Source: Bacillota bacterium (GTDB lineage: Bacteria; Bacillota_I; Bacilli_A; Acholeplasmatales; Acholeplasmataceae). From it: 63,217 nucleotides of DNA. Each line of letters starts with the position of its first letter. The first letter of the stretch is position 1. Shown here piece after piece: positions 25,319 through 55,690 of this stretch. The translations under genes were made by a program, and so were the position numbers. The notes beneath the pieces are model-generated. The model saw only the letters and a list, made by a program, of their open reading frames with translations, ran no database searches and was not told where the DNA came from. The DNA lies in NCBI GenBank assembly GCA_018817915.1, contig JAHISX010000019.1:1-63217 (forward strand), written 5' to 3'.

Positions 25319-26206
25319 TTATCCTTTGATAGCTCCTGAAGTTAATCCTTTTATAAAATATTTTTGGAGTAACAAGTAGAAAATGACTACAGGTATCATC
25401 GCCATCACTGACATCGCAAATACATAACCCCAATCGGTACGATTATGAGCTTGGAAAAACATTGTAATTGCTACTGGTAATGTTCTGATAATATCAGTCT
25501 TTAGGATTGCTTGTGACCAACCTAATTCCTCAAAAGGAAATAGGAAGTTCAAAATACTAACTGCAGCAATCGCTGGAGCTGTCATTGGAATAATGATGTA
25601 ACGGTATACAGAAAAGACACTACCTCCATCAATAAAAATGGACTCATCTAACTCATAGGGTACATTATCTTCAATATAACCTTTGAGTAAGAATGTTGAA
25701 AAAGGAATAACCCATGCTGAATAAAATAGAATAACGCCCCATGTTTTATTAATAAGCCCAAAATAAGCAGCTAATTCAAATTGAGGAACAATCATTGCCA
25801 ATCCAGGAATCAACATGATTGAAATGATGAAACCATAAATAATCTTTTTCCCAGGTATATCTAGTCTAGCAAAAGAATATGCGAGCAATGATGAAACAAG
25901 AGCGGAAATCAGCACCGTCATACTTGCAACAAATATCGTGTTAAATAAATATCTAAAGAATATAACATTATCTAATATATACTTGTAGTTCTCAAAAGTA
26001 ATTGCACTAAATTTAGGAAACAAAACTGGCGGATAAATAAACGTTGTCGCATTATCTTTTAATGATGATACAACCATATAAAACATTGGTATGACCATAA
26101 TCATTACGCCTAAAATTAGAAGCACATATCTAATGATCATAAAGGTATCCATATTTTTTGCTTTATGGTGATTCTTTTGATACTTTAGATTAGATAGCAT
26201 TTTCAT
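25319..26206 (-). CDS. Sugar ABC transporter permease, MalG type
   Basis: The protein has 295 residues from ATG 26204-26206, five bases after AGAGG. Another ATG two codons on is possible. It has six membrane helices. The ATPase-docking EAA loop reads E-L-D-E-S-I-F-I-D-G-G-S-V-F, with Gly where Ala is usual. It is the second permease of a CUT1-type importer and overlaps the MalF-type gene by 17 bp. No ATPase gene is present, so it probably uses a shared MsmX/MalK-like ATPase coded elsewhere. Confidence 0.9.
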   Translation of the reverse strand: MKMLSNLKYQKNHHKAKNMDTFMIIRYVLLILGVMIMVIPMFYMVVSSLKDNATTFIYPPVLFPKFSAITFENYKYILDNVIFFRYLFNTIFVASMTVLISALVSSLLAYSFARLDIPGKKIIYGFIISIMLIPGLAMIVPQFELAAYFGLINKTWGVILFYSAWVIPFSTFLLKGYIEDNVPYELDESIFIDGGSVFSVYRYIIIPMTAPAIAAVSILNFLFPFEELGWSQAILKTDIIRTLPVAITMFFQAHNRTDWGYVFAMSVMAMIPVVIFYLLLQKYFIKGLTSGAIKG

Positions 26207-27107
26207 CACCACCTCTTCTCATAAACTTAAACATGACTAAAGTGATGATCATGATAATCATGGCTATAATAACTGAAAGAGCTGCAGAATAACCCATATT
26301 AAGAGCATCAAATGTTTGAAAATACATCCAAGTTAAAACAACTTCAGTTTGATGGAATGGATTTCCTCCAGTAAGAATAGCAATTGGTGTATATGTATTA
26401 AATCCACCAATTGTTAACATAATTAATGCGAACAAAATTGTCCCTCTGATACTTGGCAGTGTGATGCGGAAAAACTTTTGACTTCTATTAGCTCCGTCGA
26501 TATCTGCGGCTTCATACTGATCTTTAGGAACAGCTTGAAGTGCAGCTAGAAAGATAATCATATTCCAGCCAATACCCTTCCAAATTCCTAAAAGCATTGC
26601 TGCAAATAAAGCTGAAAATCTTGTACTCAACCAACCAATAGGTTCACCAGTTAGATGCAACGTATCAGATATAAAATAATTAAGTAGACCATAATTACTA
26701 AATATATATCTAAAAAGTAAAGCAACAACAACCCATGATGTAATCACCGGTAAATAATAAGCAAGTTTAAAATGAACACTTAATTTTGTAATGCCATTGA
26801 TTAATACGGCAATAGATAGCCCAATAACCATTTGCAAAGGTACTGTCACAATCACATAAAGTAAAGTATTTGTTATAGCAATAATAGCAATAGGATCTCC
26901 TAAGACATCTGTATAATTGACCAAGCCTACAAAAGGAGATGTTTGTTGATATCCAATTTGCCAATCAAAGAAACTCATAATAATCATCTTTAGCATCGGA
27001 TAGAAAGTAAATAATGAAACGAAAAATAAGCCTGGTAAAAATATAGCCCATATCCGCCAATCCATCTTTTTGATTTTCTTTTTTAGATTATTCATCTTAT
27101 CGCTCAC
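26190..27107 (-). CDS. Sugar ABC transporter permease, MalF type
   Basis: This 305-residue protein has six membrane helices. Its EAA loop Y-E-A-A-D-I-D-G-A-N-R-S-Q-K-F-F-R-I-T-L-P is fully canonical. The start is GTG 27105-27107, seven bases after GGAG. It forms the translocation channel with the MalG-type partner. It lies downstream of the binding-protein gene, separated by an intercistronic hairpin. The substrate is inferred to be malto- or isomalto-oligosaccharide from the linked GH13 enzyme and LacI regulator. Confidence 0.92.
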   Translation of the reverse strand: MSDKMNNLKKKIKKMDWRIWAIFLPGLFFVSLFTFYPMLKMIIMSFFDWQIGYQQTSPFVGLVNYTDVLGDPIAIIAITNTLLYVIVTVPLQMVIGLSIAVLINGITKLSVHFKLAYYLPVITSWVVVALLFRYIFSNYGLLNYFISDTLHLTGEPIGWLSTRFSALFAAMLLGIWKGIGWNMIIFLAALQAVPKDQYEAADIDGANRSQKFFRITLPSIRGTILFALIMLTIGGFNTYTPIAILTGGNPFHQTEVVLTWMYFQTFDALNMGYSAALSVIIAMIIMIITLVMFKFMRRGGDENAI

Positions 27108-27134
27108 TTAAATACTCCATTCATATTAAAAATA

Positions 27135-27174
27135 AGGGTAGTCCGATGTTTGATGTATATACTCAGACTACCCT
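27135..27174 (-). terminator. Intercistronic hairpin after the binding-protein gene
   Basis: AGGGTAGTC-x-GA pairs with TC-x-GACTACCCT. On the minus strand the stem is followed by TATTTTTAATATG. Such hairpins after binding-protein genes usually cause partial termination or stabilise the upstream mRNA, so the lipoprotein is made in excess over the permeases. Confidence 0.65.
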
Positions 27175-27197
27175 AATTCTAATCCATTACATGCTAA

Positions 27198-28436
27198 TTA
27201 ACTCCCAAGAAGTGCATCAATTTCTGTAGCAGCTTCATCTAAGGCAACTTGAACTGTCTTTTCACCAGTAATAGCTAGTGCGACTTTAGTTGCAATAATA
27301 TTTTCTACTTCGCTCCATTCAGGAATAACTGGTCTAGCTTTAGCAGTCAATAATGCTTCTGCAAATATAGGAAGTAAAGGCATAGCAGCAAAAGCTTCTG
27401 CATTGGTAATTGCATCTAAATTAACTGGCATTTGACCAACTTTTGCCATTTCAACTTGTGCATGTTCATCAGTCATAAACTTAACAAATTCCCAGGTTGC
27501 ATTACGATGAGCTTCATCTGAAGTCTTGAATTGCATAAAGTTTTCACCACCAAGAACACTTATTGATCCAGCACTACCTGCAGGAAGTGGCATAGCACCA
27601 TATTCAATACCAGCAGTATCATTTGAGGCAGCTCTCCATGGTCCATCAAGTTCTAAAGCATATGTTCCAGCAGCCCAACCATCAGTATCGCCTACAGCAC
27701 CTGGATCCATTGATGGGCCAGCAAGTGAACCTTCAGCATATAAATCAGCGAGTTGTTGAATGACATCGACAACGATTTGGCTATTGATATATCCATCAGC
27801 TGTTGTGTTATCTGGTGATAAAACATCTCCACCTTCACTCCAAATGTATGGTCCAACATTCCAAATACCTGTCCAAGGTTCAACCATTCCAATAACTGTT
27901 TCATCAGTTAATGAACTAGCTGCTTGCCATACTTGGTCTAAAGTTGTAGGAACACTTACTCCAGCTGCAGTTAATAAAGTTTCATTATAGAATAAAATCT
28001 TAGTGTTTGTATTTGCAGCGATTCCATAATATTCATCACCCATCATATTAGAACTATTAGGTTGAGCTAAAACTTTAGCAGCTTGCGTTTCATAGTCTGA
28101 GAACTCACTCATAGCATAAAGTGTATTCAAACTTTGAAATTGAGGAACAAATGCAATATCACCACGTAATAAATCTGGCAATACGCCTGTTGATGCTCCC
28201 AAAACAACACTATTTTTTAGTGCTGACCAATCCATAAAGACTTGGTTGACTTTGATATTTGGATTTGCTTCTTCAAATTCAGAAATTAAAGTTTCCAATA
28301 CTGCAACCTGTCCATCTCCAGCAGAATAATTGTGCCAAAATTCTATTGTTACAACTTCTTCATCTTTAGCACACCCAACAAGTAATGCTGATCCAAAAAC
28401 TAATAGCATTACGATTAAAATCATCTTTTTTCTCAT
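27198..28436 (-). CDS. Sugar ABC transporter substrate-binding lipoprotein
   Basis: The protein has 412 residues. The lipoprotein signal ends L-V-G-C (Cys22), followed by a family 1 extracellular solute-binding fold (E-F-W-H-N-Y-S at about 33-39). It captures the sugar outside the membrane for the MalF/MalG-type permeases downstream. AGGAG precedes the ATG. It sits between the GH13 gene and the permeases in one operon with LacI control. The exact sugar is not readable from sequence. Confidence 0.93.
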   Translation of the reverse strand: MRKKMILIVMLLVFGSALLVGCAKDEEVVTIEFWHNYSAGDGQVAVLETLISEFEEANPNIKVNQVFMDWSALKNSVVLGASTGVLPDLLRGDIAFVPQFQSLNTLYAMSEFSDYETQAAKVLAQPNSSNMMGDEYYGIAANTNTKILFYNETLLTAAGVSVPTTLDQVWQAASSLTDETVIGMVEPWTGIWNVGPYIWSEGGDVLSPDNTTADGYINSQIVVDVIQQLADLYAEGSLAGPSMDPGAVGDTDGWAAGTYALELDGPWRAASNDTAGIEYGAMPLPAGSAGSISVLGGENFMQFKTSDEAHRNATWEFVKFMTDEHAQVEMAKVGQMPVNLDAITNAEAFAAMPLLPIFAEALLTAKARPVIPEWSEVENIIATKVALAITGEKTVQVALDEAATEIDALLGS

Positions 28437-28484
28437 TTTTCTCTCCTAATGAATATATTTTTTTACTACTTGATTCTCATCATG

Positions 28485-30224
28485 TTAAGCAAGTATTTCA
28501 AATTTCATTTCGTTATCCTTTTCGATAACTTTTATGATTCTAAATGTGTTTTCACTGATATGAAATTTCACCTTATATCCTTTGCCTGCATCAACTACTT
28601 GTTGATTAAAAATTGAAATGTCAAAATTTACATTTTTCCCTTGAGTTCCGTTATTGAATAATACAACAATTGATTCATCTTCAAAAGTTCTCACAAATCC
28701 ATACACATCATCTTCGATATCAAAATGTTTGAAATCACCATACTTCAATCCTTTTTGTGTTGACCTCATTTGAATCATTTGTTGATAAAAGGAAAAGATT
28801 TCCTTATTTTGTTTTTCCCATTTCATTGTTGCTCTACAATCAGGATCTGTATTACCTTCTATACCGATTTCATCACCATAATAAATGATTGGCATTCCTG
28901 GATAAGTCATTTGAAATGCAACTACCATTTTAAGTAAATCTATCTCATGATTTGCTATCGTGAGTAATCTTGGAGTATCATGGCTACCAAGCAAGTTATA
29001 TAATATATCTTTTGTTTGTACGGGATATTGAAACATTAATTCTTCGATTTTAAATTTGAAGGATTCTTTATCCAATTTTTGTCTGATAAAGTAATCTAAA
29101 ACATATTCTCTAAATCTATAATTCATTATAGAATCTAATTGATCTCCACGAATTAAATCTCTCGCATCATGCCATGTTTCACCTATAAGTAATGCATCAG
29201 GCTTAACCGATTTAATTGATTTTCTGAATTCTTGCCAGAAGGTGTAGTCTATTTCATCAGCAACATCTAAACGCCATCCGTCAATGTTAGCTTCTTTGAT
29301 CCAGTAAGTTCCAACATTAAGAATATATAATCTAAGTTCTTTACTTGAATAACGTAACTTAGGCATCAGTTTGTAATCTCCAACACATTCAAAATTCATG
29401 TTTTCGACATCAACTGTATCTCCTTTGATATAAAACCAGTTCCAATATGGAGAGTTCTTACCCTTTTCAATAACATCTTGAAATTGTTTTGAATAGAATC
29501 CTATATGATTGAATACACCGTCTAAGACAATTTTAATATTGACTTGATGCGCTTTACTTACAAGTTCTTTTAAGTCTTCTATACTACCAAAAGCTGGATC
29601 AATCTCAAAATAATCGATTGTATCATATTTGTGATTAGAAGATGAGGTAAAGATAGGAGTTAAAAAGATTGCGTCAATTCCAAATGTCTTTAAATAGTCT
29701 ATTTTGTTTATAATGCCTCGAATATCACCTCCAAAGAAATTGATTCTACTTGGTTTGTTATCCCAATCTTCAATATTCTTTCGATCGAGATGAACGTTCC
29801 CGCGATGAAATCTATCTGGGAATATGTGATAACCTGTAATACCTTTTGCCCAACTTGGTGTTTTAAATATATCATTTTCATTCGTACTTTGATATTCGAA
29901 AAACCGGTTTGTGTTTTCTTGTGAGATTCCATATGGAGTATAATAGAAAACTTCATCCTGATCAATAATCTCAAAATAGTAATTTAAGTACCTTACTGAT
30001 TCTGAAAAATCTAGCTCAACTTGATAGAAATGGCTGAATCCTGAAAAATTAAAATTTTTTAGGGTCACTTTTTTCGATTTATTCTGGTTGAATCGCTTCC
30101 AATAAACAAGATTAATGATTAATTCTTTATCAACAAGGCATTCAAGTTTAATGACAACTGAATTTCTACTTGTTGGATAAATGTACTCTTTGGTTTCGTT
30201 ATGTCTTACTATAAATTGATTCAT
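28485..30224 (-). CDS. GH13 neopullulanase/cyclomaltodextrinase-like glucosidase
   Basis: The protein has 579 residues. An N-terminal beta-sandwich (about 1-110, CBM34-like) precedes the (beta/alpha)8 barrel. Catalytic residues are visible: region I D-G-V-F-N-H (235-240), nucleophile Asp320 in G-W-R-L-D-V-A-D-E, acid/base Glu349 in L-I-G-E-T-W and Asp416 in G-S-H-D-T-P. This pattern fits GH13_20 enzymes that cut cyclodextrins, pullulan or maltodextrins. There is no signal peptide, so it acts on imported oligosaccharides in the cytoplasm. No Shine-Dalgarno sequence is seen within 15 bases of the ATG. Confidence 0.88.
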   Translation of the reverse strand: MNQFIVRHNETKEYIYPTSRNSVVIKLECLVDKELIINLVYWKRFNQNKSKKVTLKNFNFSGFSHFYQVELDFSESVRYLNYYFEIIDQDEVFYYTPYGISQENTNRFFEYQSTNENDIFKTPSWAKGITGYHIFPDRFHRGNVHLDRKNIEDWDNKPSRINFFGGDIRGIINKIDYLKTFGIDAIFLTPIFTSSSNHKYDTIDYFEIDPAFGSIEDLKELVSKAHQVNIKIVLDGVFNHIGFYSKQFQDVIEKGKNSPYWNWFYIKGDTVDVENMNFECVGDYKLMPKLRYSSKELRLYILNVGTYWIKEANIDGWRLDVADEIDYTFWQEFRKSIKSVKPDALLIGETWHDARDLIRGDQLDSIMNYRFREYVLDYFIRQKLDKESFKFKIEELMFQYPVQTKDILYNLLGSHDTPRLLTIANHEIDLLKMVVAFQMTYPGMPIIYYGDEIGIEGNTDPDCRATMKWEKQNKEIFSFYQQMIQMRSTQKGLKYGDFKHFDIEDDVYGFVRTFEDESIVVLFNNGTQGKNVNFDISIFNQQVVDAGKGYKVKFHISENTFRIIKVIEKDNEMKFEILA

Positions 30225-30311
30225 AGTTATTGTATAAATAGCATACCAAATGTTATTTATTGTGCCCCTTCCTAAGTAATTTTATCTTGCGACTCGCTTT
30301 TTATATGTAAA

Positions 30312-31322
30312 CTACTTTGTTGTCTGTCTATTCTCAAGACTTGTTGATATTAATAAACCTTGATCTCTTGTTTCTGGATCCTCAATCATTTCAAATAATA
30401 ATTTTGCTGCTTGATACCCCATTTCATATAAATCAACATGAACTGTTGTTATGGTTGGATACGATAATTCTGCTATTTGCTGATTATCAAAACTGATTAA
30501 ACCTATATTTTCAGGAATTACTAATCCTGCTTCTTGTATTGCTTTAATTGCTCCTATGCTAAGGATGTTATCTGCACAAATAACTGCATCTGGAACGTTC
30601 TTCTCATTCAATAATTTTTTCATTTGAGTATATCCTTCATCTTTTGTATTTCCACATTCGATGACAAGATCAGGGACTACTGCAATTCCACTGCTAGTTA
30701 ATGCGTTTGAATATCCTTCATATCTTCTATTACTAAAATTTTTAGTGTGGTCATAACCAAGAAAAGCAATATTTTTATATCCTTTATCGAGTAACTCATA
30801 AGTTGCAATCTCTGCACCTTTTTTATTATCAACGTCCACCCAACTCACAGATTCTTTTAATTGGGTTGTCTCACCAATCGAAACAAACGGTACATGATCT
30901 CTTTTAAGTTCTTCAACAATAGCTGAAGTTAAAATCGAAGATGGCAATATAACACCCTCTGTTCTTTTACCCTTGACTAACCATTCTAAAACACTTTGTT
31001 TTTTGAGTGTGGTATTTAAATTTGCAACTATTAAAGAAAACTCTTTATGATAGACAAGTTTTTCTATACCATGCATAATTTCATAAAAGAATGGATTCTG
31101 GAATGATTTTTCATCTTCTACATCAACAAGTAAGGTAACTGTATAAGATTTACTATTGGTCAAAGCTTTCGCAATACTATTTGGTGAATAATTCATTTCT
31201 TTGATGATGCTAAAAATTCTATCTTTGGTTTCCTTTGAGATAGATGAACTATTGTTAATTGTTCTTGAAACGGTTGAAGTTGATACACCAGCAGCTTTAG
31301 CGACATCTTTGATATTTGACAT
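30312..31322 (-). CDS. LacI-family regulator of the first alpha-glucan operon
   Basis: The protein has 336 residues. The N-terminal HTH is classical (I-K-D-V-A-K-A-A-G-V-S-T-S-T-V-S-R-T-I-N at about 4-23) and is followed by a periplasmic-binding-protein-like sugar domain. It is the first gene of the operon it presumably represses, upstream of GH13, the binding protein and the permeases. Two identical TGCAATCGGTTGCA operators flank its promoter region. The ribosome site is weak (AGGGTG). The inducer is probably a malto-oligosaccharide, inferred from the linked genes. Confidence 0.92.
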   Translation of the reverse strand: MSNIKDVAKAAGVSTSTVSRTINNSSSISKETKDRIFSIIKEMNYSPNSIAKALTNSKSYTVTLLVDVEDEKSFQNPFFYEIMHGIEKLVYHKEFSLIVANLNTTLKKQSVLEWLVKGKRTEGVILPSSILTSAIVEELKRDHVPFVSIGETTQLKESVSWVDVDNKKGAEIATYELLDKGYKNIAFLGYDHTKNFSNRRYEGYSNALTSSGIAVVPDLVIECGNTKDEGYTQMKKLLNEKNVPDAVICADNILSIGAIKAIQEAGLVIPENIGLISFDNQQIAELSYPTITTVHVDLYEMGYQAAKLLFEMIEDPETRDQGLLISTSLENRQTTK

Positions 31323-36584: not shown

Positions 36585-36609
36585 TAAAAAGGAAGATTGC
36601 TCTTCCTTT
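36585..36609 (-). terminator. Terminator of the InlB-repeat/binding-protein pair
   Basis: AAAGGAAGA-TTGC-TCTTCCTTT, a perfect nine-base stem, T-rich afterwards on the minus strand. Confidence 0.8.
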
Positions 36610-36625: not shown

Positions 36626-38236
36626 TTACCAACCAATCATCAAATCATCATATGCTTCTTGCAGTGCAGCACTGACGTTGCCGTCGCCTAGCATGATACG
36701 CTCTAAAGCGATTGTCATAGGATCATTGATTCTTGAAGCATGCATGAATGCTGGTGCAAAGAACATAACATCAAGTTGACTATAAGTTGCTTGAGCAACA
36801 AGTGACATATAATATTGTTCAACTGATGGACTATTCAATAGTTCTTGATACAAGATGCTATCATAAGCACTAGTTCTAACAGGTAAGAAACCTGTATTTA
36901 AAGCCCAATCGGTTGTATTTTCAGTATTGGTTAAATACTTTAAGAATAACCAAGAAGCTAATTGTTGTTGCTCAGTTCCAGTATTCATTAATGAGATGTT
37001 TGTTCCTTCTTGAATCACGGCATTTGATTCAAGAACATCTAGGTTATAAGGTACTGGAGCAACTCCTATTTGAAAAATGGGTAAACCGGTTAATTGATCA
37101 ATTGGGGGAACATTATATCTGACTGATAAGGATGAGGTCACAATAGCAAACGTCTTTTGTTGAATAAAAGGTGTTGAAGCATAAGATTCATCCCAAAAAT
37201 CAGGCAATGTGATGTATGCTTTATTATCTTCAAGAAAGTTCATTGCTGCTATTGTGTTTGGACTACTGTTAAATAAGTAATTGCCTAACATGGTATCGTA
37301 ATTAATGGATGTAAAAGATCCATGATATTGTTTAGCAAAGGTTAAAGCTGCATTGCCAGCTGATTCGTAGGCTGCAACAGTCATTTGATTGAGATTCGTA
37401 AATTGTTCTGCATATATTCTCATCAATCCATCTACAGATTGAAAATCTTGCCAGACTTCTGGTGCTCCATATCCAATTTCATCATAAGCTGTCTTATTAT
37501 AAATCAATATTTCAGTACTTTTAGCAAAAGGTAATGCATAATAGGATCCCGCTTCATCAAATTGACTGCATTCATCTCTAAATGATGGTAAGAAATCAGA
37601 AAGCACATCTGAATCATTTAAACCATAATTATCATTTTCAATATAATAATCTAAATTGATGACTGAATCACTATAATAGTATTCTGCTGTATGTTCAGGA
37701 AGTGCTTGAACTAGATTTGGTAGAGTGCCTCCACCAATTGCAGATGTCACATTTGATTTGAGTGCATCTAAACTGTAACTGCTATCAGGAATATTAACTG
37801 TAATATTAGGGTATAAATCCATAAACCCATTTGCATATTTTTGAAGTAATGCTTTCTGAACAGTGCCTAAAGCATGCCACATGGTGATCTCAATTGGATC
37901 AGTTGTCAGTGTAAGTGTAGGTTGTTCTTGGTCTTGTAAATACCACTTTGCGTAAACTGTCATGATGTTTGCTACATATGCTTCTGGTATCGCATCTGTA
38001 GTTAGAGGTATTTCAAATGTTTTATCATCCCAAAACCATCCACCAAATGAATAACCATCTCTTGTTGGTTCAGTAGGTAATGTGATTGATTTACCATCTG
38101 TTAATTGTGGTGCTACTGATGACCCACCATTTGAATCAAACTCCAAAGAAATCTCAAGAGGTTGAGTACATGAGGATAAGACTACTCCTAGTAAAAAGAC
38201 TAGCAAGACCAAATAAAATTTTTTATAAACTTTCAT
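36626..38236 (-). CDS. Lipoprotein: one InlB B-type repeat plus family 1 solute-binding domain
   Basis: The protein has 536 residues. The lipoprotein signal ends L-S-S-C (Cys23). Residues about 28-95 are an InlB/Listeria-Bacteroides beta-repeat (F-D-S-N-G-G-S through G-Y-S-F-G-G-W to V-Y-A-K-W). From about 110 on there is a CUT1-type extracellular binding fold (I-T-M-W-H-A-L-G, L-P-N-L-V-Q-A-L-P and later blocks). The N-terminal module is almost the same as in the gene 26 bp upstream, while the binding domain is different. No permease gene is next to it. It could be a surface sugar receptor, a scavenging protein or a sensor. GGAGG precedes the ATG. Confidence 0.85.
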   Translation of the reverse strand: MKVYKKFYLVLLVFLLGVVLSSCTQPLEISLEFDSNGGSSVAPQLTDGKSITLPTEPTRDGYSFGGWFWDDKTFEIPLTTDAIPEAYVANIMTVYAKWYLQDQEQPTLTLTTDPIEITMWHALGTVQKALLQKYANGFMDLYPNITVNIPDSSYSLDALKSNVTSAIGGGTLPNLVQALPEHTAEYYYSDSVINLDYYIENDNYGLNDSDVLSDFLPSFRDECSQFDEAGSYYALPFAKSTEILIYNKTAYDEIGYGAPEVWQDFQSVDGLMRIYAEQFTNLNQMTVAAYESAGNAALTFAKQYHGSFTSINYDTMLGNYLFNSSPNTIAAMNFLEDNKAYITLPDFWDESYASTPFIQQKTFAIVTSSLSVRYNVPPIDQLTGLPIFQIGVAPVPYNLDVLESNAVIQEGTNISLMNTGTEQQQLASWLFLKYLTNTENTTDWALNTGFLPVRTSAYDSILYQELLNSPSVEQYYMSLVAQATYSQLDVMFFAPAFMHASRINDPMTIALERIMLGDGNVSAALQEAYDDLMIGW

Positions 38237-38262
38237 TACTCTTCCTCCAATTAAATAGAATA

Positions 38263-40572
38263 TTATTTTATGATAATTTCACTGATACTTTCAAATCCTC
38301 TAATTGTATTCCATACTGGATTTGAAGTTGATAAATCAAGGATTGTTAATTTCATCGAATCGACACCCCATCTTTTTCCACCCGAATAATCAACAAATCC
38401 ACCCATTGGAATTCCTACAGGAGATTCCTCTAGAGCGGCAATGTACGATTGCCAGTTTAATTCACTAGAACCCACTCTAAGTAACCCTTCAATGAATACA
38501 GATGCAGCAATATAACCTGCTATCGCATATGAATTGGTCGTATATTCAGAATAACCCGCATCAGTCATATCACTCATGAAATCATTACAGTCATCGGAAA
38601 ATCCACCAACACCATCAGGATCCATAAAATCAAGCCATGCATTGAAATACATGTTAAATCCATAATCGATATTCATATCAATAGCTGATGGAGTTGCATT
38701 CATGTAAGATGTAAAAACAGGAGCTTCCATATGTTGAGAATTTAAAGATTCAATAGCTACCATAAATGGAACAGCATTTGAAGCAATAATCACCGCACCT
38801 ACGTTTGCGGATTTCAATTCGAGAATTGAGCTATTAAGTGATGAAAGGTTATCTGGATCAAATGCTCGATAAATGAATGATGATGTTCTATCTTCTTCAA
38901 GTGCTTGTAATTCTATGCCTTGCTTCATGGATAGTCCAATGCTATCACTTGTATATAACACACCAATTTGAGTGCTTAATCCTAGTTTTTGATCTAAATT
39001 AACTCCAAATAAAGATTCATTTAATACTCGTGCTGTCATGACACGACCTTCGGTCATGTAGATGGGTTGAACTGGCATGATGGGATTTCCAGATGATTCA
39101 TGAAAATATAATTCATTAATATTGGTTGCAGCATAAACCATTGGAATGCCAGATTCTTGAATATAATCCAATGTTGCACTGACTGTTGGAGTCCCAAAGT
39201 GACCTACGAGAGCAAACACTTGATCTTCTTCAACCAACTTTTGTGTATATGTCATACCTAATGTTGAATCATATGCGTCATCATAATGTATAAAACTAAT
39301 GGTTCGTCCATTGATGCCTCCAGCTTGATTGATCTGAAAAAAGTATGCTTCAATACCAGCATTAAAAGGCACACCTATTACAGCAAAATAACTTGATGTA
39401 GCCGCTGTATTGCCTACTAAAATTTGTGTGTCTGTAACCCCTTGAACAAAACTTTCTGCCCATTTAGCATATAAGATGATATCAGATGACGGCATCAAAT
39501 CAAATATAAATGGCTCAGTATAGGCCTGGTCAGTAAACCATCCTACAAAAAATGAACCATCATCATTTGTTGGATTTTCTGGTTTTTCAATGGCTGAATT
39601 GAAAACTTGAGTTATTGAATCAACAAACGATCCGCCCATTGATTCAAATGTAATTGTATATTCGTTAATAATATATTGTGCAGTAATAGTGACTTTGTGT
39701 GCGGGCATTGACGACGGAATTGAAATATCCCATTCAACAAAATCATACCCATCAAAAGCAGCTATAGGATAGGAGACATTATCTAATGTTTCTCCAAATT
39801 GATAATCTGTAGTCTGCAAGATCGTACCATCTCTATTTAAAAATTCAAGTGTATATCTACCGATTTCCCATTGTGCATACAATGTTACATCAGATGCTGG
39901 CATTGTTATGGGGATATCGATGTCCCACCCTAAAAAAACATATCCCTCTTTTATTGGTATTGGAACTTCTAAGTCACTCAAGTCCACACTATATTCATAT
40001 AAAGACGATTCAATAACTGATTCATCTAAATCAAGAAATTGCAAGGTATATGAATTGATATTCCATTTAGCATAAAGAGTAATGTTATCTTTTGGCAGTG
40101 ATGCAAAACTATAAGGTGATGTCATGGCTTCATCAAAATAAAATGCATCAAATGTATATCCTTCTTTGTTTGGATCCGTGATACTTAGTGATGATGATTC
40201 AACATTAAATGTTGTTGGATTATCAGAAATAACAATTCCACCATCCAACTCATAGGTAATTGTATAATTGATCAAATCCCATTTCGCATAAACAACCATG
40301 ATATCTTGGATGTATGTATCTTCTATTGCTGACTCTATTAGAGGTTCAGAAAATATACCATTATCCCAAAACCATCCTTCGAATGAATACCCTTCTTTTG
40401 TCGGCTCAGCGGGTAATGTTAATGATTTACCATCTGTTAAGAGTGATGAAACTGATGAACCTCCATTTGAATCAAACTCTAATGAAATCTCAACAGGTTG
40501 AGTACATGCCGTAAGTGATAAGCTCATCAATAGATAAAATATGAATAGATAAAGATATTTATGTTTTTTCAT
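38263..40572 (-). CDS. Lipoprotein: five InlB B-type repeats plus LivJ-type binding domain
   Basis: The protein has 769 residues from ATG 40570-40572, four bases after GGGAGG. The signal ends L-T-A-C. About residues 25-395 hold five or so InlB-type repeats, each ending Y-A-K-W, Y-A-Q-W or similar. From about 400 the sequence is a type 1 periplasmic-binding fold of the branched-chain amino acid receptor class (I-L-V-G-N-T-A-A-T-S, G-G-I-N-G-R, F-A-L-V-G-H-F-G-T-P-T). No liv permease or ATPase genes are near. The repeats probably hold the receptor away from the membrane. It is co-transcribed with the next lipoprotein gene. Confidence 0.85.
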   Translation of the reverse strand: MKKHKYLYLFIFYLLMSLSLTACTQPVEISLEFDSNGGSSVSSLLTDGKSLTLPAEPTKEGYSFEGWFWDNGIFSEPLIESAIEDTYIQDIMVVYAKWDLINYTITYELDGGIVISDNPTTFNVESSSLSITDPNKEGYTFDAFYFDEAMTSPYSFASLPKDNITLYAKWNINSYTLQFLDLDESVIESSLYEYSVDLSDLEVPIPIKEGYVFLGWDIDIPITMPASDVTLYAQWEIGRYTLEFLNRDGTILQTTDYQFGETLDNVSYPIAAFDGYDFVEWDISIPSSMPAHKVTITAQYIINEYTITFESMGGSFVDSITQVFNSAIEKPENPTNDDGSFFVGWFTDQAYTEPFIFDLMPSSDIILYAKWAESFVQGVTDTQILVGNTAATSSYFAVIGVPFNAGIEAYFFQINQAGGINGRTISFIHYDDAYDSTLGMTYTQKLVEEDQVFALVGHFGTPTVSATLDYIQESGIPMVYAATNINELYFHESSGNPIMPVQPIYMTEGRVMTARVLNESLFGVNLDQKLGLSTQIGVLYTSDSIGLSMKQGIELQALEEDRTSSFIYRAFDPDNLSSLNSSILELKSANVGAVIIASNAVPFMVAIESLNSQHMEAPVFTSYMNATPSAIDMNIDYGFNMYFNAWLDFMDPDGVGGFSDDCNDFMSDMTDAGYSEYTTNSYAIAGYIAASVFIEGLLRVGSSELNWQSYIAALEESPVGIPMGGFVDYSGGKRWGVDSMKLTILDLSTSNPVWNTIRGFESISEIIIK

Positions 40573-47162: not shown

Positions 47163-49136
47163 TCACCAGTTCTTATGCACGAAAACAAATGTCTTGTTAT
47201 GATCGCCGGAAACAGAAATCGAACCTTCTTTCCAATCAATGAAACAATCAGAGTGATTATCCATATAATGATATCTGCCCTGTACTCCATAAAGTATAAC
47301 TGTCAATGTATCGTTATCTAACTGATTTCCAACATCACTTGGAAACATTTGATTTTCTCCTAAATTTAACACCAAAGCACTACCTTTTTTAGCAAATACT
47401 TGAATATCATTCAAAGTAGTTTTAAGATGATGAATTTTATTTCCTGAATATGTTTGGTCATTTAAGAGATGCTTCCATTCGCCTGCTGGAAAATAGATGT
47501 CTTGTTCATATTGATTTTCTTCTATCACAGGTGCAACCAACAAATGTCCAAACAGATACTGATGATGGTACTCATAAGCAAGAGGATCATCAGGATATTC
47601 AATCATCAAATGCTTCATCAGTGTTGTTTTATATCTCACAGCTTTGATGGATTCACTATAAATATATGGAAGCAAATTCATTCTCATCCAATAGTATGAT
47701 TGAAATATGTGCAATAAGTCTTCACGATTGTAATGTTTCATCATATTCCATGGTGTACGTTCGTTATTCATGATCTTTGATGCATCTAAAAGTGCAAATT
47801 GCCCACCAATAGGTTCTGAATGAAATTGCATGATAGGAGTAAAAACAGCAAATTCTGTGCCACGCAGATAAAGTTCCATGCTCGGAAGATCTCCAGCAAA
47901 ACCTCCAATATCAAATCCCCAAAAAGTTTGTCCACTTAAGCTCGCATTGATACCTGCCTGATAGACTGCTTGAAATTCTTTCCAAGTTGATTTTTGATCT
48001 CCAGCCCATTGAATCGTGTTAGATTGTTGACCCAAGTAGCCAGCACGAGAAAATAGGACTCGATTATGACCGGAAAATTCATGATATGCTTTGATATAGT
48101 CTTTTGAATATTGATTAATCATATCCCTACCCATAAGATTTGAAGAAAAAACAATATCATCAGAGTAAATAAATTCCCCACCATCTGTCTTAAATCCATC
48201 AACACCCATATCTAAAAGATATTGTCTTTTATTAAACCACCAATTTTTCATCGATTGATTGCTAAAATCTGGAATCATCGAACCTGGAAACCAACGACCT
48301 TCTGGAATGGTATATATGGATTGATCTTGTTTTTTGCAGATGAGATCGTGCTCTATGACATATTGTTGATCGAGTTCATGTTGTGCATTCATGGGCTCAT
48401 GAGACTCTAGAGCTTTGATGACTGGAGTTTGCCACAAAATGAGTTTAATGCCCTGTTGGTGAATCATATCAATCATCTTTTGAGGATCGTACCAAGGATC
48501 CTCTTTATCATATAAAATATCAGAAGATTTTAACCCCTCTTTTTTTGGAGCATATTTGGATTGATTAAAAGCATAAAATGTTGCTTCATCACTCCACTGT
48601 TCAATAACAAGTGTTGTCATAGGTAGCCGATATTGAATACTATAGGTTAATTGTTCTTCTATCATCGCTTGTTTGTTCCATCGATGTGCTGACATCCATG
48701 GACCAAAAGCCCATTTTGGAGGTAGAAGTGTTTCTCCAGTTAACTCCATGAAGTCACTGATCATGTCCTTGGGTTTTCCAGTAAACACATAAATCACGAG
48801 GTCATCTTCTAACTTACTGAAGTCAACATCAATATCATTTTCAAGACTAAACTCAAATACTCTTCTCGTATGAATCAATATACCTAATCCTTCCTTTAAG
48901 AAGAAAAATGGGAGAGGAAAATAAGTTTTTTCATTCTGATTGCAAAACTGGTCACTTACCTTATTTTCAATATGGTGACCTTTTTGATTAATTGCATTAT
49001 ATTTTTCACCAAAACCAAAAATATAATTGAATTGACCAGAAATCTTTAATTGATCTTTGTTGATGGTAAGTTTGATGAGATCCAAATCAAGTTGATAATT
49101 CTTAATCTCAGATCTTAACAGTTTTGCTAGAATCAT
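47163..49136 (-). CDS. GH31 alpha-glucosidase
   Basis: The protein has 657 residues. The GH31 marks are F-G-F-G-E-K-Y (40-46), nucleophile Asp318 in F-K-T-D-G-G-E and acid/base Asp380 in W-A-G-D-Q-K-S-T-W, with F-S-R-A-G between them. There is no signal peptide, so it acts inside the cell on imported alpha-glucosides or isomalto-oligosaccharides. AAGGAG is eight bases before the ATG. The start overlaps the GH15-like gene by 29 bp. It is the last gene of the second alpha-glucan operon. Confidence 0.9.
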   Translation of the reverse strand: MILAKLLRSEIKNYQLDLDLIKLTINKDQLKISGQFNYIFGFGEKYNAINQKGHHIENKVSDQFCNQNEKTYFPLPFFFLKEGLGILIHTRRVFEFSLENDIDVDFSKLEDDLVIYVFTGKPKDMISDFMELTGETLLPPKWAFGPWMSAHRWNKQAMIEEQLTYSIQYRLPMTTLVIEQWSDEATFYAFNQSKYAPKKEGLKSSDILYDKEDPWYDPQKMIDMIHQQGIKLILWQTPVIKALESHEPMNAQHELDQQYVIEHDLICKKQDQSIYTIPEGRWFPGSMIPDFSNQSMKNWWFNKRQYLLDMGVDGFKTDGGEFIYSDDIVFSSNLMGRDMINQYSKDYIKAYHEFSGHNRVLFSRAGYLGQQSNTIQWAGDQKSTWKEFQAVYQAGINASLSGQTFWGFDIGGFAGDLPSMELYLRGTEFAVFTPIMQFHSEPIGGQFALLDASKIMNNERTPWNMMKHYNREDLLHIFQSYYWMRMNLLPYIYSESIKAVRYKTTLMKHLMIEYPDDPLAYEYHHQYLFGHLLVAPVIEENQYEQDIYFPAGEWKHLLNDQTYSGNKIHHLKTTLNDIQVFAKKGSALVLNLGENQMFPSDVGNQLDNDTLTVILYGVQGRYHYMDNHSDCFIDWKEGSISVSGDHNKTFVFVHKNW

Positions 49137-50976
49137 GATCTTTTCTCCTTAAATTTTCGATTTCTTTAATATATGCTGCAGTGATAAATTCTGCATTCGC
49201 CCACATGAGTGGATTGATAAATGGTATATTCTCATCAGTTGCCTGAATAGCCTCAGGTAACAAACCATAATGATTGCGGTGTGCAATCATCCATAGCATC
49301 AAATGATGATAATTACTCATGTCGTTTGTCAAAAAAGCGACTTCTGCAGCTGCTGCAGTATTAAATATCCACGGTCCGTTATGATACTCTTGCTCACTAT
49401 AACCAATACCATAATTAAAATAATTCGAAATGTTGAGTAATGTCTGATAGTTTTTAATATAATGCTCGGTCATAGGATATCCTAGTGATAATGATAGTAA
49501 TTGTGGTGTATCATATCTTTTGATAACTTCATTGTGATAACTGACATATCCATAGGGATAATATTGTTCTTCAAGAAAGGTTTGTTCAATATTTGACTGA
49601 ATATTTTCTGCTATGTTTTTCCAAGTATCCGCATCATCTGCATGGTTTAGTTCATTTGCTAGATATGACGCACCATATAAACCTCCAACAATGAACATGT
49701 TTGTAGAAATAATATATGCTGGTCCATAAACACCTTCGTTAACGCCACCTTCTGGTCCAAATAATCCATTCTTTTTTGATATATGCTTTAATGAATTGAT
49801 CATAGACTGATAATATGAATAAGGAACAATCATCTGTTTTGTTAACGCATAATCATCGGCAATGATCCTAGCAAAATACCCAATTGCATCTATTTGCGAT
49901 GAGACATTGTTGTTTGCACCTTCATCTGGCATTTGATTAGCATTATAACGTTGAAAAAACTCTCCATTCTCTTTGAGTTGACATCCTGTCAAAAAATGAA
50001 TAATAGATTTATATTCGTCATAGAATCCTGAATATAAAAATGCTCTAGCACCCATTAAGGCATCTCTAACATAAAAGCATGCTTTGCCATTAGCAAAATA
50101 GTGCCCTGTCAAATCTGCAGGCAAAAATCCATTGAGTAATGCTCCTCTTAGAGCAACAAGCATGGTATGGGATTCCTCTTGATAATGAGGTGTTTTTTTA
50201 GCATTATAAAGCCACTTTTTCCAATATGATTTTATGGATTCTAATTGATCCTCAAAACTATAATCATCGACTAGTCTCCGGATTTCTGTTTCATCGGTTG
50301 CAACTAAAATAGCCCACCTGATAGTCTTTTTTTCATCGGGCTTTAAATCAACATTTTGATTTATTGACATTGCAATCGGTAAATGAGAATTGATTTGTCC
50401 TTCAAAATGATTTTTATTGTACAAGATATCTTCAATACCGTGGTATGCAAATCCACTAGGTGCATCTAAAGAAACACGCATATCAAAACCATTTTGTTGG
50501 ATCACTGCAAAATATTTGTTTACTAAAGCATAAATCAATGATTGTCTATACGAAGTCACACATGCGTGATTACCGTGACTAGAAATGACAAGTGATGAAA
50601 CTTGAAACTGTTGATAATCTTTTGTCGTGTTTTTGATTTCCGTTTCAAATGTTAAGTGATTCTTTCCAGCACCAACACGGTCAATCTTGATAAACTTTGG
50701 ATAGCTAAACACATCGACCGTCACAGAATGATCTTCAATATATGTCTTGCTTGATGTCACTCTTTGAGCATGACCAATTCTCGGTTTTATGCGATCTCCA
50801 AAATATGCTTTTTCTTGATGTGTGACAACGGTACATGCACTATGAATCAAATCTTCTTTAAAATCATTAATATAAAGATGTTGTACACCTATGGCTTTTT
50901 GATCAATGATGCACTCATTCAGTCCATAAGATGTGGTAAATTGGCTTGATCCTAAATATGTTAGTCCACGATACAT
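49108..50976 (-). CDS. GH15-like six-hairpin glycosidase
   Basis: This 622-residue protein has an N-terminal beta domain (about 1-240) and a C-terminal (alpha/alpha)6 barrel. Blocks such as F-Y-V-R-D-A (about 308-313) and the late L-L-P-E-A-I-Q with N-P-L-M-W-A-N-A-E (about 570-600) resemble glucoamylase-type GH15 enzymes, where the Glu of L-P-E is catalytic. No signal peptide. Its ATG shares an A with the stop of the MalG-type gene (TAATG), so the two are tightly coupled. It probably trims imported glucans together with the GH31 and GH13 enzymes. The exact family is tentative. Confidence 0.65.
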   Translation of the reverse strand: MYRGLTYLGSSQFTTSYGLNECIIDQKAIGVQHLYINDFKEDLIHSACTVVTHQEKAYFGDRIKPRIGHAQRVTSSKTYIEDHSVTVDVFSYPKFIKIDRVGAGKNHLTFETEIKNTTKDYQQFQVSSLVISSHGNHACVTSYRQSLIYALVNKYFAVIQQNGFDMRVSLDAPSGFAYHGIEDILYNKNHFEGQINSHLPIAMSINQNVDLKPDEKKTIRWAILVATDETEIRRLVDDYSFEDQLESIKSYWKKWLYNAKKTPHYQEESHTMLVALRGALLNGFLPADLTGHYFANGKACFYVRDALMGARAFLYSGFYDEYKSIIHFLTGCQLKENGEFFQRYNANQMPDEGANNNVSSQIDAIGYFARIIADDYALTKQMIVPYSYYQSMINSLKHISKKNGLFGPEGGVNEGVYGPAYIISTNMFIVGGLYGASYLANELNHADDADTWKNIAENIQSNIEQTFLEEQYYPYGYVSYHNEVIKRYDTPQLLSLSLGYPMTEHYIKNYQTLLNISNYFNYGIGYSEQEYHNGPWIFNTAAAAEVAFLTNDMSNYHHLMLWMIAHRNHYGLLPEAIQATDENIPFINPLMWANAEFITAAYIKEIENLRRKDHDSSKTVKI

Positions 50977-51800
50977 TATTTGATGCCACCTTCCTGAATA
51001 CCCCTAATGAAATACTTCTGAGCAATTGCATAAATGATTAATATTGGTAGCATCGATATTAATGAACCGGCCATCAATGTGTTATACTCTGTGCCATATT
51101 GTGCATTAAGTTTACTCAATAAAACAGGGAGTGTTATCTTGTTGGGATCCGTTAAAATGATCAGTGGCCAAAAATAATCATTCCAATAGCTCATGAAATT
51201 GATGATGAATAATGTTGTCATTGGAACGATGCTCATTGGGACGATAATTTTCAAGTAAATTTGAAACATATTCGCACCATCTATCACAGCAGCTTCTATA
51301 TATTCATTAGATATTTTTTTCATGTATTGTCTAAGTAAAAAGATAGCAAATACATTAAATATCGATGGTATGATGACTCCAAAGTATGAATTTGTCAAAC
51401 CGAGTTTCATTAAAATGATAAATATAGGTATGCCTGTAACCTGAAGAGGCACCATCATACTTGCTAAAAATAGAACAAAAATGGTATTTTTGAACTTAAA
51501 GTCGAATTTTGCAAAAACAAATGCTGCAAGACTCGATGAAATAAGTGTCAGTATCGTTGAGCTCAACGATACAATAAGACTGTTAAAAAAGGATTTAATA
51601 AATGGTAGTTGAGTGAGCACTTTGATATATGAATCAAAGGACACATGCTCTGGAATCCATTCAATTGGAATTGCCATTAAAGCGCCAGCATTTTTTAAAG
51701 ATGTTGAAATCATCCAAAAAAATGGAACAAGACTTAAGAGAGTGATTATAAATAATACGATAAATACTGTATAGTTGGTTAATTTCTGATTGTTATTCAT
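50976..51800 (-). CDS. Sugar ABC permease, MalG type (second operon)
   Basis: The protein has 274 residues and six membrane helices. The EAA loop reads Y-I-E-A-A-V-I-D-G-A-N-M-F-Q-I-Y. It overlaps the MalF-type gene by 8 bp and the GH15-like gene by one base. It is a component of a CUT1 importer with no ATPase gene in the operon. Confidence 0.93.
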   Translation of the reverse strand: MNNNQKLTNYTVFIVLFIITLLSLVPFFWMISTSLKNAGALMAIPIEWIPEHVSFDSYIKVLTQLPFIKSFFNSLIVSLSSTILTLISSSLAAFVFAKFDFKFKNTIFVLFLASMMVPLQVTGIPIFIILMKLGLTNSYFGVIIPSIFNVFAIFLLRQYMKKISNEYIEAAVIDGANMFQIYLKIIVPMSIVPMTTLFIINFMSYWNDYFWPLIILTDPNKITLPVLLSKLNAQYGTEYNTLMAGSLISMLPILIIYAIAQKYFIRGIQEGGIK

Positions 51801-52674
51801 AGAACACCCACTTCTTTTGTAATTTCAATTGGATGAGGGTAATTGTAATAATAATCACCAGTAAAATAATCGATAATGCGGTTGCATATCCCATATTGAA
51901 ATATCTGAATCCATAAGTATAGATTCTTTCAACAATCACTTGTGTTGAACCGACTGGTCCCCCACCTGTCATAACCATCACTTGTGGAAATAATTGAAAT
52001 GAGTTGATCATGGTTGTAATTAAAACAAAAAATAGGGTTGGTGTAACTAACGGAAATGTGATTTTAGCTAAGATTTGTCTACTGTTTGCTCCATCAATTT
52101 TCGCAGCTTCATAAAGCGTATAGTCAACACTTCGCAAACCTCCAAAAATGATTAAAGAAAAAAAGCCTAAATCTTTCCAGACACTGACCATCACAATGGA
52201 AACCATAGCCCATTTGGGATCTGTCAACCAGGCTGGACCTTCAATGCCAATTAAAGCTAAAGCATTATTGAGTAAACCATATTGTCCATTTAAAACCGAT
52301 TTCCATATAACAGCACCTGCAACCCAGGATGTCAAAACAGGAATAAATAATAACGTACGATATGCGCCTGCACTTTTTGCTTTTGAATCAAACAACAAAG
52401 CTATGACAAATGATGAAATCATAATTGCAGGTATATAGAGAACTATAAACTTCAAAGTGTTCGTCATGACTCTATAAAACTCATCGCCTTTGAAAATATC
52501 AATATAGTTCTTAAATCCAATAAACTCCGGACTGCCTCCAATGACACTCCACGATGTAAAACTTAAATAAAACGCTGAAATAATTGGAAGCAAAGAAAAG
52601 ACGATGAATCCAATAAGACTTGGAACAAGAAGGAGAAGAATTACTACTTTTGCTTTTTTTTGGATGTTGATCAT
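51793..52674 (-). CDS. Sugar ABC permease, MalF type (second operon)
   Basis: The protein has 293 residues and six membrane helices. The EAA loop is L-Y-E-A-A-K-I-D-G-A-N-S-R-Q-I-L. GAGG lies seven bases before the ATG. It pairs with the overlapping MalG-type permease and the binding lipoprotein whose gene lies 45 bp upstream. Confidence 0.93.
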   Translation of the reverse strand: MINIQKKAKVVILLLLVPSLIGFIVFSLLPIISAFYLSFTSWSVIGGSPEFIGFKNYIDIFKGDEFYRVMTNTLKFIVLYIPAIMISSFVIALLFDSKAKSAGAYRTLLFIPVLTSWVAGAVIWKSVLNGQYGLLNNALALIGIEGPAWLTDPKWAMVSIVMVSVWKDLGFFSLIIFGGLRSVDYTLYEAAKIDGANSRQILAKITFPLVTPTLFFVLITTMINSFQLFPQVMVMTGGGPVGSTQVIVERIYTYGFRYFNMGYATALSIILLVIIITITLIQLKLQKKWVFYE

Positions 52675-52719
52675 CGTCTATCCTCACTTTCACTATTTAT
52701 CTATATCATACCTCAAAAA

Positions 52720-53952
52720 TCAATTATATTTATCTTCGATAAACGCTTGTGCTTGATCTAATGCTTGTTGTGCAGTCAATTCACCATTAATAGCTCTTGA
52801 AAGATAAAGTTGTAAATCATCAGCAACTTCTCCAAATCTTTCTAAGGATGGTGGCATTACTAAATAATTAAGCGATTCAAATACTGCATCTTTATTCGCA
52901 GGAGGTGTAACAGCCTTATATGCTGTGACAACAGCATCTGTCAATGCAACTGGTAAGTCCCAGTTAGCATTTGCACGAAGCAATGCAGCTTCTTCACTAC
53001 CCGATAGGAATGCAGCAAATCGAGTTGCTGCTTCTTTTTCATCTGAGTTTTCACTTACAACAACAGCATCAGAAAAGAAATGTGTAGCTTTTTGAGTAAT
53101 ACCTGGTTCAACAGCGATGTCCCATGCAAAATCAGCTTGTTCTGCAAATGTTCCAAATGCCCATATACCTGTAACGATCATTCCAAGTCTGCCAGAAAGG
53201 AATAAGTCCCAGTCACCCATGCCACCTAATTGATCAACAGTTGGTGTGACATTTGTACCATTGACACGATCAATCATCATGGTCAATGCTTCGACATTTT
53301 GCGTTGAATTCAAAGTGAATGCTGATTGATCAGCATTCATCATGCTTCCACCATTTTGAGCAACAGTTTTGTAGAATTCCCATGTTTGAATCGGTCTATA
53401 GACACCATAAATGTCATCGCCTAATGCACGAATTGCTTGAGCTGCAGCAAGTTCATCAGCCCATGTCCATGTATTGGTAGGATAATCCACTTCAGCTTGA
53501 TCAAATAAGTCTTTGTTATAAATTAAGACAACATTTGAGAACTTTGTTGGTAAACCATATTGGTCGCCATCAATTTGAAATGCAGTTAGTGTTGTTGCAT
53601 TGATTTCACTGATATCAATGGTTGTTGTATCAATTTCAGCAATCGCGCCTTTATCTGCATAAGCTCTGAAATTTTCGATATTGAGTTCGAATACATCAGG
53701 TGCTTGACCACCAGCAACACGGATAGCAAGTTGAGTGAAATAATCAGTATAGCCGAGTGTTTCAACAGTGACATTGACATCTGGATTTGCAACTTCAAAT
53801 GCATCCACCATGGCTTCAAGTGTTGCTTCCTGCCCACCATTTGATGAATAATTTAAAAATGTGATATCTGTAATACCATCATCTTCTGCTGCGCAAGCAG
53901 TAACGAAGAATAACAATGCAATTACAGCAATTAAAACCTTAATCTTTGACAT
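52720..53952 (-). CDS. Sugar-binding lipoprotein (second operon)
   Basis: The protein has 410 residues from ATG 53950-53952, which gives a proper lipoprotein signal ending V-T-A-C. The longer reading to 54033 puts 27 polar residues before the signal and overlaps the GH13 gene, so it is rejected. The body is a family 1 extracellular solute-binding fold. It delivers an alpha-glucan oligosaccharide to the permeases downstream. GGAG lies 11 bases before the ATG, a longer spacing than usual. Confidence 0.92.
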   Translation of the reverse strand: MSKIKVLIAVIALLFFVTACAAEDDGITDITFLNYSSNGGQEATLEAMVDAFEVANPDVNVTVETLGYTDYFTQLAIRVAGGQAPDVFELNIENFRAYADKGAIAEIDTTTIDISEINATTLTAFQIDGDQYGLPTKFSNVVLIYNKDLFDQAEVDYPTNTWTWADELAAAQAIRALGDDIYGVYRPIQTWEFYKTVAQNGGSMMNADQSAFTLNSTQNVEALTMMIDRVNGTNVTPTVDQLGGMGDWDLFLSGRLGMIVTGIWAFGTFAEQADFAWDIAVEPGITQKATHFFSDAVVVSENSDEKEAATRFAAFLSGSEEAALLRANANWDLPVALTDAVVTAYKAVTPPANKDAVFESLNYLVMPPSLERFGEVADDLQLYLSRAINGELTAQQALDQAQAFIEDKYN

Positions 53953-54001
53953 AATTTGTATTTCTCCTTTTTCTATTTTTTTGATACACGATGAATTTGT
54001 T

Positions 54002-55624: not shown

Positions 55625-55638
55625 GAGCGCTTCTCCTT

Positions 55639-55654
55639 GGTATAACGGTAAACC
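55639..55654. promoter_or_regulatory. LacI operator upstream of the malL-like gene
   Basis: GGTATAACGGTAAACC is a 16-bp near-palindrome with a central CG, 15 bp before the malL-like start. Fifteen of its 16 bases recur, in the opposite orientation, at the regulator's own promoter (56714-56729). Confidence 0.65.
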
Positions 55655-55690
55655 TTTATAAACATACTTAATGCTTCACAAGTGATAGCA

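Follow-up and report, generated by a model that had tools for sequence, protein, structure and literature searches.

As a rule, a solute-binding protein (SBP) occurs together with its permease and is assessed through it. The closest described systems to the gene pair considered here are UgpB and the dinucleotide-binding SBPs of CUT1-type ATP-binding cassette (ABC) importers (4mfi, 7c0f, 9lff), the LivJ/LivK-type SBPs of HAAT importers, the internalins with their InlB B-repeats (PF09479, List_Bact_rpt), and the 'DNA-degradation loci' of Ca. Izemoplasmatales, the transporters of which were called probable nucleoside or nucleobase transporters (Wasmund 2021, PMC8289736). The window, i.e. the whole stretch of DNA that was analyzed (63,217 nucleotides; contig JAHISX010000019.1 of assembly GCA_018817915.1), carries two adjacent lipoprotein genes that combine parts of these systems. 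Gene 1 has the same two-lobed fold as the UgpB-like proteins (Z about 34–40, 18–21% identity), gene 2 has the Peripla_BP_6 domain of LivJ/LivK, and the stalks of both are built from the same kind of repeat as in internalins. We consider that there is about an even chance that the two genes encode stalked, auxiliary copies of ABC-importer SBPs that deliver to permeases elsewhere.

The differences from the described systems are also clear. Unlike internalins, both proteins have a lipid anchor and an SBP domain without a leucine-rich repeat (LRR) cap; there is no LRR match, and the full-length internalin model scores 113.6 bits, far below its cut-off of 1600. Unlike UgpB and other CUT1 SBPs, gene 1 adds a repeat stalk, has no adjacent permease and is changed at six of seven contact positions, whereas gene 2 differs from LivJ/LivK by a five-repeat stalk and the lack of adjacent LivHMGF genes. 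An operon relative of gene 1, on contig C59 of the same genome, lies in a locus of the DNA-degradation type that contains an ABC importer and SNase-domain and lamin-tail lipoproteins. Gene 1 itself lies outside such a locus, and its pocket is altered.

A common stalk joined to different binding domains

Based on Pfam matches above the gathering cut-offs, gene 1 combines Flg_new/InlB B-repeat (46 bits) with SBP_bac_8 (86 bits, cut-off 27), and gene 2 combines Flg_new (162 bits) with Peripla_BP_6 (110 bits). An earlier note, made without database searches, had described two lipoproteins with nearly the same anchor-plus-repeat module, a CUT1-type and a LivJ-type binding fold, one versus about five repeats and no transporter genes beside them, and this description holds. 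The repeats end at residue 98 in gene 1 and at residues 98, 170, 235, 300 and 371 in gene 2, which gives one repeat and five. The signal-plus-repeat modules are identical at 60 of 106 residues, with about 84–85% DNA identity in the best stretch. Over 66 nt the DNA match is 85%, whereas none of 200 codon-shuffled controls exceeds 52%. In gene 2 the matching stretch runs from 40501 to 40436, a few bases from where the note had placed it. In the open reading frame (ORF) list and the Pfam matches of the window, no permease or ATPase gene adjoins gene 1 or gene 2. The nearest ABC permeases (25319–27107 and 50976–52674) each lie beside their own binding protein.

The two parts of gene 2 have different closest relatives. 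In a tree of the repeat modules (77 columns, with most forks weak) genes 1 and 2 form a sister pair (93/84) nested among the modules of stalked SBPs (90/94), whereas the binding domain of gene 2 is sister to the type-A Liv-operon SBP of genome G149 (97/98 and 98/97 in two trees). Module shuffling, as the earlier note had proposed, is well supported by these conflicting trees. A malic-enzyme gene lies upstream in the window; in the stretches fetched from G149, G104, G147, G137 and G096 no ortholog of gene 1 or gene 2 lies beside it, and in G134 the same neighborhood contains a relative of gene 1 and lacks gene 2. Together with the repeat-module tree, these neighborhoods are in line with a copying event, in the lineage of the window, that gave gene 2 its module. 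A second protein that joins the repeat to Peripla_BP_6 (G106 C177, L128:5498-7849) looks like a separate fusion, since its repeat module groups elsewhere in the tree. Its contig also has an 824-aa frame (15–2489) that is matched by the repeat query.

Binding domains and their operon relatives

Gene 1 was modeled with AlphaFold2 (mean pLDDT 91.7). In comparisons using Foldseek and VIA-align, this model matches, over 378–379 residues, UgpB of M. tuberculosis (Z 39.9) as well as SBPs that bind dinucleotides (Z about 38). In a tree built from the C-terminal 430 residues of each protein, gene 1 forms one clade (100/99) with proteins from three genomes of the same genus (G096, G149 and G134), all of which combine Flg_new, in two repeat stretches each, with SBP_bac_8. 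No permease was recognized beside these three orphans in the fetched flanks. A further orphan of G134, on contig C56, is nearer to the operon SBPs. Most other close homologs lie in operons with MalK-like and permease genes, often with SNase- or lamin-tail-type lipoproteins, and most of the operon-borne homologs that were scanned have Ig-type stalks.

We mapped seven contact positions through HMMER and MAFFT alignments, taking the ligand contacts of UgpB from its structure paper (PMC12718374) and those of the dinucleotide-binding SBPs from the mutant names in the 7c0* structure entries. All seven (Y, Y, D, S, Q, Y and R) are kept in 42 of 42 operon homologs, a set hand-picked from loci that have importer genes close by. 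Since the search pattern for homolog loci covers the S position, conservation of S is biased. The operons concerned are that on C59 (L051:1-11128) and related ones among L188–L267, often beside lipoproteins of the SNase or lamin-tail type, and we suggest that such operons import phosphate-bearing (oligo)nucleotides. Gene 1 keeps only one of the seven positions, and the three other members of its clade keep two, three and none. At the first three positions the four orphans read L/L/E, L/T/Y, Y/T/E and V/T/Y. Given this loss of pocket residues across the clade, the ligand of gene 1 is probably no longer that of its operon relative.

All seven positions are kept in two other stalked orphans, that of G134 on C56 and one of Ca. 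Izemoplasma acidinucleici MAG-BB-5 (L229:5593-7473). The latter is a repeat-stalked UgpB-type SBP with no permease match in the fetched flanks, based on BLAST and ORF starts. In Mycoplasmatota strain zrk2 (L228:5011-8967), one 1,318-aa frame combines cohesin, dockerin, Ig-like, SBP_bac_8, aBig_2 and SNase domains.

The closest relatives of gene 2 are Liv-operon SBPs, several of which have an N-terminal extension of ~150 residues; of these, the two scanned with Pfam each have two Big_3 domains. As judged from its sequence, gene 2 is under operon-like constraint: it keeps 85% of the residues that are invariant in eight type-A SBPs, and equally diverged operon SBPs keep 84–88%. On the carboxylate side of the LivJ pocket, the contacts of which we take to be A100, A101 and T102 together with S79, gene 2 keeps A-A-T and has T at S79. 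The ammonium side of the E. coli LivJ pocket could not be aligned in gene 2 or in its operon relatives. The AlphaFold2 model of gene 2, made without a usable alignment, reached a pLDDT of 32 and was not used for the fold search; a scan of viral_contigs yielded no relatives. Liv-type operons (L054, L118–L127 and L268–L273) sit with thiolase-, SDR-, CoA-transferase- and hydrolase-like genes, based on ORF starts. With such neighbors, these operons may take up an organic acid as their ligand instead of an amino acid.

Stalked proteins elsewhere and the role of the pair

The earlier note had pointed to further copies of the module and to distant permeases as things to look for, and both are present in the genome. 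A search with Flg_new gave 26 matches, and the repeats occur on about ten proteins besides those of genes 1 and 2. Among the scanned genes the partners are a Bmp/PnrA-type SBP, a PhnD-type SBP, RCC1, LRR (three genes, in one of which the repeats are below the Pfam cut-off), an S8 subtilase, an S41 peptidase and endonuclease I, and one repeat protein of 1,177 aa has no other Pfam family. The repeats are near the N-terminus in most of these proteins and follow the protease domain in the subtilase. As judged by the ORF starts of the neighbors, no transporter gene was recognized beside the stalked Bmp or PhnD genes. Four SBP classes (CUT1/UgpB, LivJ, PhnD and PnrA/Bmp types) are found in this genome as stalked, permease-free proteins. 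For each class the genome also encodes a canonical permease system at another site: contig C3 carries a Liv operon, C76 a PnrA-type system, C5 a PhnD-type system, and C59 the CUT1-type operon with its SBP on Ig-type stalk domains. The permeases on C3 and C76 are family matches; the other components on these contigs and the transport genes on C5 and C59 were assigned from ORF starts and context.

Between the stalked PhnD domain and the canonical protein on C5 the identity is 76.5%; for the stalked PnrA/Bmp domain and the protein on C76 it is 45%. Across the 20 genomes of the genus that were searched, all other matches of the PhnD and Bmp types occur in frames of canonical or smaller size. A PhnD-type match with six in-frame stops (L279, G134 C11:518-1186) is probably a broken copy. 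With the PhnD and PnrA/Bmp types as two more stalked orphans, stalking appears to be a repeated process.

The combination of the repeat and SBP_bac_8 was also found inside importer operons of three related genomes (L187/L226, L222 and L231), with two permeases confirmed by Pfam in L187/L226 and the permeases of L222 and L231 identified by BLAST. The earlier note had reasoned that, without permease or ATPase genes, the two proteins may be receptors, sensors or adhesins rather than transport parts, and that a transporter component already described with this architecture would speak against it. These operons come close to being such a case, and the step from the lack of a local permease to the lack of a transport role is thus not secure. 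A non-transport role is hypothetical for the pair; the altered pocket of its clade keeps that role open for gene 1. In the literature searched, judging by titles and the starts of abstracts, we found no paper that joins 'InlB B-repeat' and 'solute-binding protein', nor any account of this architecture under Mollicutes repeats, stalks, Ig-stalked SBPs, orphan SBPs or moonlighting.

In the explanation that we favor, both proteins would be membrane-anchored SBPs that their InlB B-repeat stalks hold off the surface of a wall-less cell. Gene 1 would be one of a clade of orphans whose lineage diverged from the SBP of a nuclease-linked CUT1 importer, and gene 2 would have arisen through the fusion of a Liv-type SBP with a neighboring copy of the stalk module of the gene 1 type. 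Both would still bind ligands, as far-reaching auxiliary SBPs, and would hand them to permeases elsewhere, Liv-type on C3 and CUT1-type on C59; the case for binding and hand-over is stronger for gene 2 than for gene 1. Operon SBPs with repeat, Ig or Big_3 stalks indicate that a stalk is compatible with transport. No transpeptidase domain was found in the genome, whereas 10 of 14 control genomes have it, which agrees with the lack of a wall. Peloplasma aerotolerans, a named relative, is described as a non-motile mollicute without a cell wall (PMC11122141).

Several observations weigh against delivery to distant permeases. No permease adjoins gene 1, gene 2 or the other orphans of the gene 1 clade. 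The branches of both stalked genes are long (0.59 and 0.66, compared with 0.05–0.3 for most operon SBPs); that of gene 2 is 0.66, and that of its sister in G149 is 0.08. The loss in gene 1 is enriched in the pocket, with one of seven contact positions kept versus about 125 of 176 other operon-invariant positions (Fisher p = 0.004, gene 1 alone), and the possibility that gene 1 is a plain second, redundant SBP of the C59 importer was rejected on its pocket residues. Finally, the Liv permeases on C3 are of another Liv type than the source of the gene 2 domain: the SBP, two permeases and one ATPase of this operon are 92–94% identical to the second operon of G149. No dedicated type-A Liv permease was found in the genome (assembly 95% complete), where BPD_transp_2 matches occur on C3 and C76 only.

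The long branches of both stalked genes and the specifically rewritten pocket of the gene 1 clade, together with the fact that all four members of this clade are orphans with differing neighbors, would suit a role outside transport, as in the receptor reading of the earlier note. Released from docking to a permease, the binding domains of such receptors or scavengers would hold or sense a ligand at the cell surface. We regard this as rather unlikely, since no kinase, chemoreceptor, sensor partner or other output gene was recognized beside gene 1 or gene 2, the operon-like constraint on gene 2 argues against it, and the reported lack of motility in P. aerotolerans makes chemotaxis unlikely. The pocket replacements differ among the four orphans, as might be expected if gene 1 were a copy in decay or free drift, under no selection for a ligand. 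However, the frames are intact in four species, 64–70% of the operon-invariant residues are kept across the clade, and the loss is concentrated in the pocket instead of being evenly spread, which makes drift improbable. Stalk repeats of the internalin type, and their joining to LRR and RCC1 domains in the same genome, recall adhesins, in which the binding domains would attach the cell to polymers or surfaces (e.g. nucleic acids or polysaccharides) and the repeats would give reach; SBP clefts bind small solutes, however, and gene 1 is modeled as an ordinary two-lobed SBP, so we consider adhesion quite unlikely too. Chance resemblance or an assembly artifact might be feared in a draft genome of 89 contigs, but with Pfam scores far above the cut-offs and the same architecture in other assemblies its likelihood is close to negligible.

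It is conceivable, if on the whole doubtful, that stalking has recurred in this genome, with SBPs of four unrelated classes each placed on one kind of surface-repeat chassis, and that at least the gene 1 lineage has become a surface receptor that works without a permease, has a new ligand and is shared by several species of the genus. Comparison sets for the question of when an SBP leaves transport are provided by the permease-free copies on stalks that accompany canonical systems, and by the stalked SBPs within operons. One case open to testing is the gene 1 clade, with the parental pocket in all 42 operon homologs and a rewritten one in the orphan lineage.

Layout of the pair and its setting

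The window is the whole of contig C51 of a 2.13-Mb draft genome, and its close matches among named records are Acholeplasmataceae. Gene 2 precedes gene 1 on the minus strand, with both frames intact and a gap of 26 bp (Table 1). For gene 2, the start at 40572 is better than that of the ORF list (40584) because a GGGAGG-type ribosome site precedes it. The hairpin after gene 1 is probably the end of a gene 2–gene 1 transcript. A promoter consensus scan around the genes gave fewer sites than in shuffles and was not used as evidence.

Table 1 Features of the gene pair (positions in the window)
Feature	Position	Strand	Description and evidence
Gene 1	36626..38236	-	ORF; 536-aa lipoprotein, one InlB B-repeat and UgpB/CUT1-type (SBP_bac_8) domain; Pfam; AlphaFold2 model
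Gene 1 lipoprotein signal peptide	38168..38236	-	Lipobox LSSC, Cys23; sequence
Gene 1 repeat 1	37943..38158	-	Pfam, genome repeat search, sequence
Gene 1 binding domain	36626..37909	-	Contact positions changed (L156, L179, E181, E410, F450, N504); S240 kept
Terminator-like hairpin directly after gene 1	36588..36609	-	Consensus scan
Gene 2	38263..40572	-	ORF; 769-aa lipoprotein, five InlB B-repeats and LivJ-type (Peripla_BP_6) domain; Pfam
Gene 2 lipoprotein signal peptide	40504..40572	-	Lipobox LTAC, Cys23; sequence
Gene 2 repeat 1, module in common with gene 1	40279..40494	-	Pfam, alignment, sequence, repeat-module tree
Gene 2 repeat 2	40063..40278	-	Genome repeat search, sequence
Gene 2 repeat 3	39868..40062	-	Genome repeat search, sequence
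Gene 2 repeat 4 (divergent)	39673..39867	-	Sequence
Gene 2 repeat 5	39460..39672	-	Genome repeat search, sequence
Gene 2 LivJ-type binding domain	38263..39447	-	Sister to Liv-operon SBP of closest relative; trees

Two further loci of the window encode importers of the CUT1 type. At 25319–31322 the importer genes are accompanied by an alpha-amylase-like gene and a LacI-type gene, both identified from ORF translations, and at 47163–56704 the second importer lies with a GH31 enzyme, an alpha,alpha-phosphotrehalase-like enzyme and a LacI-type regulator.

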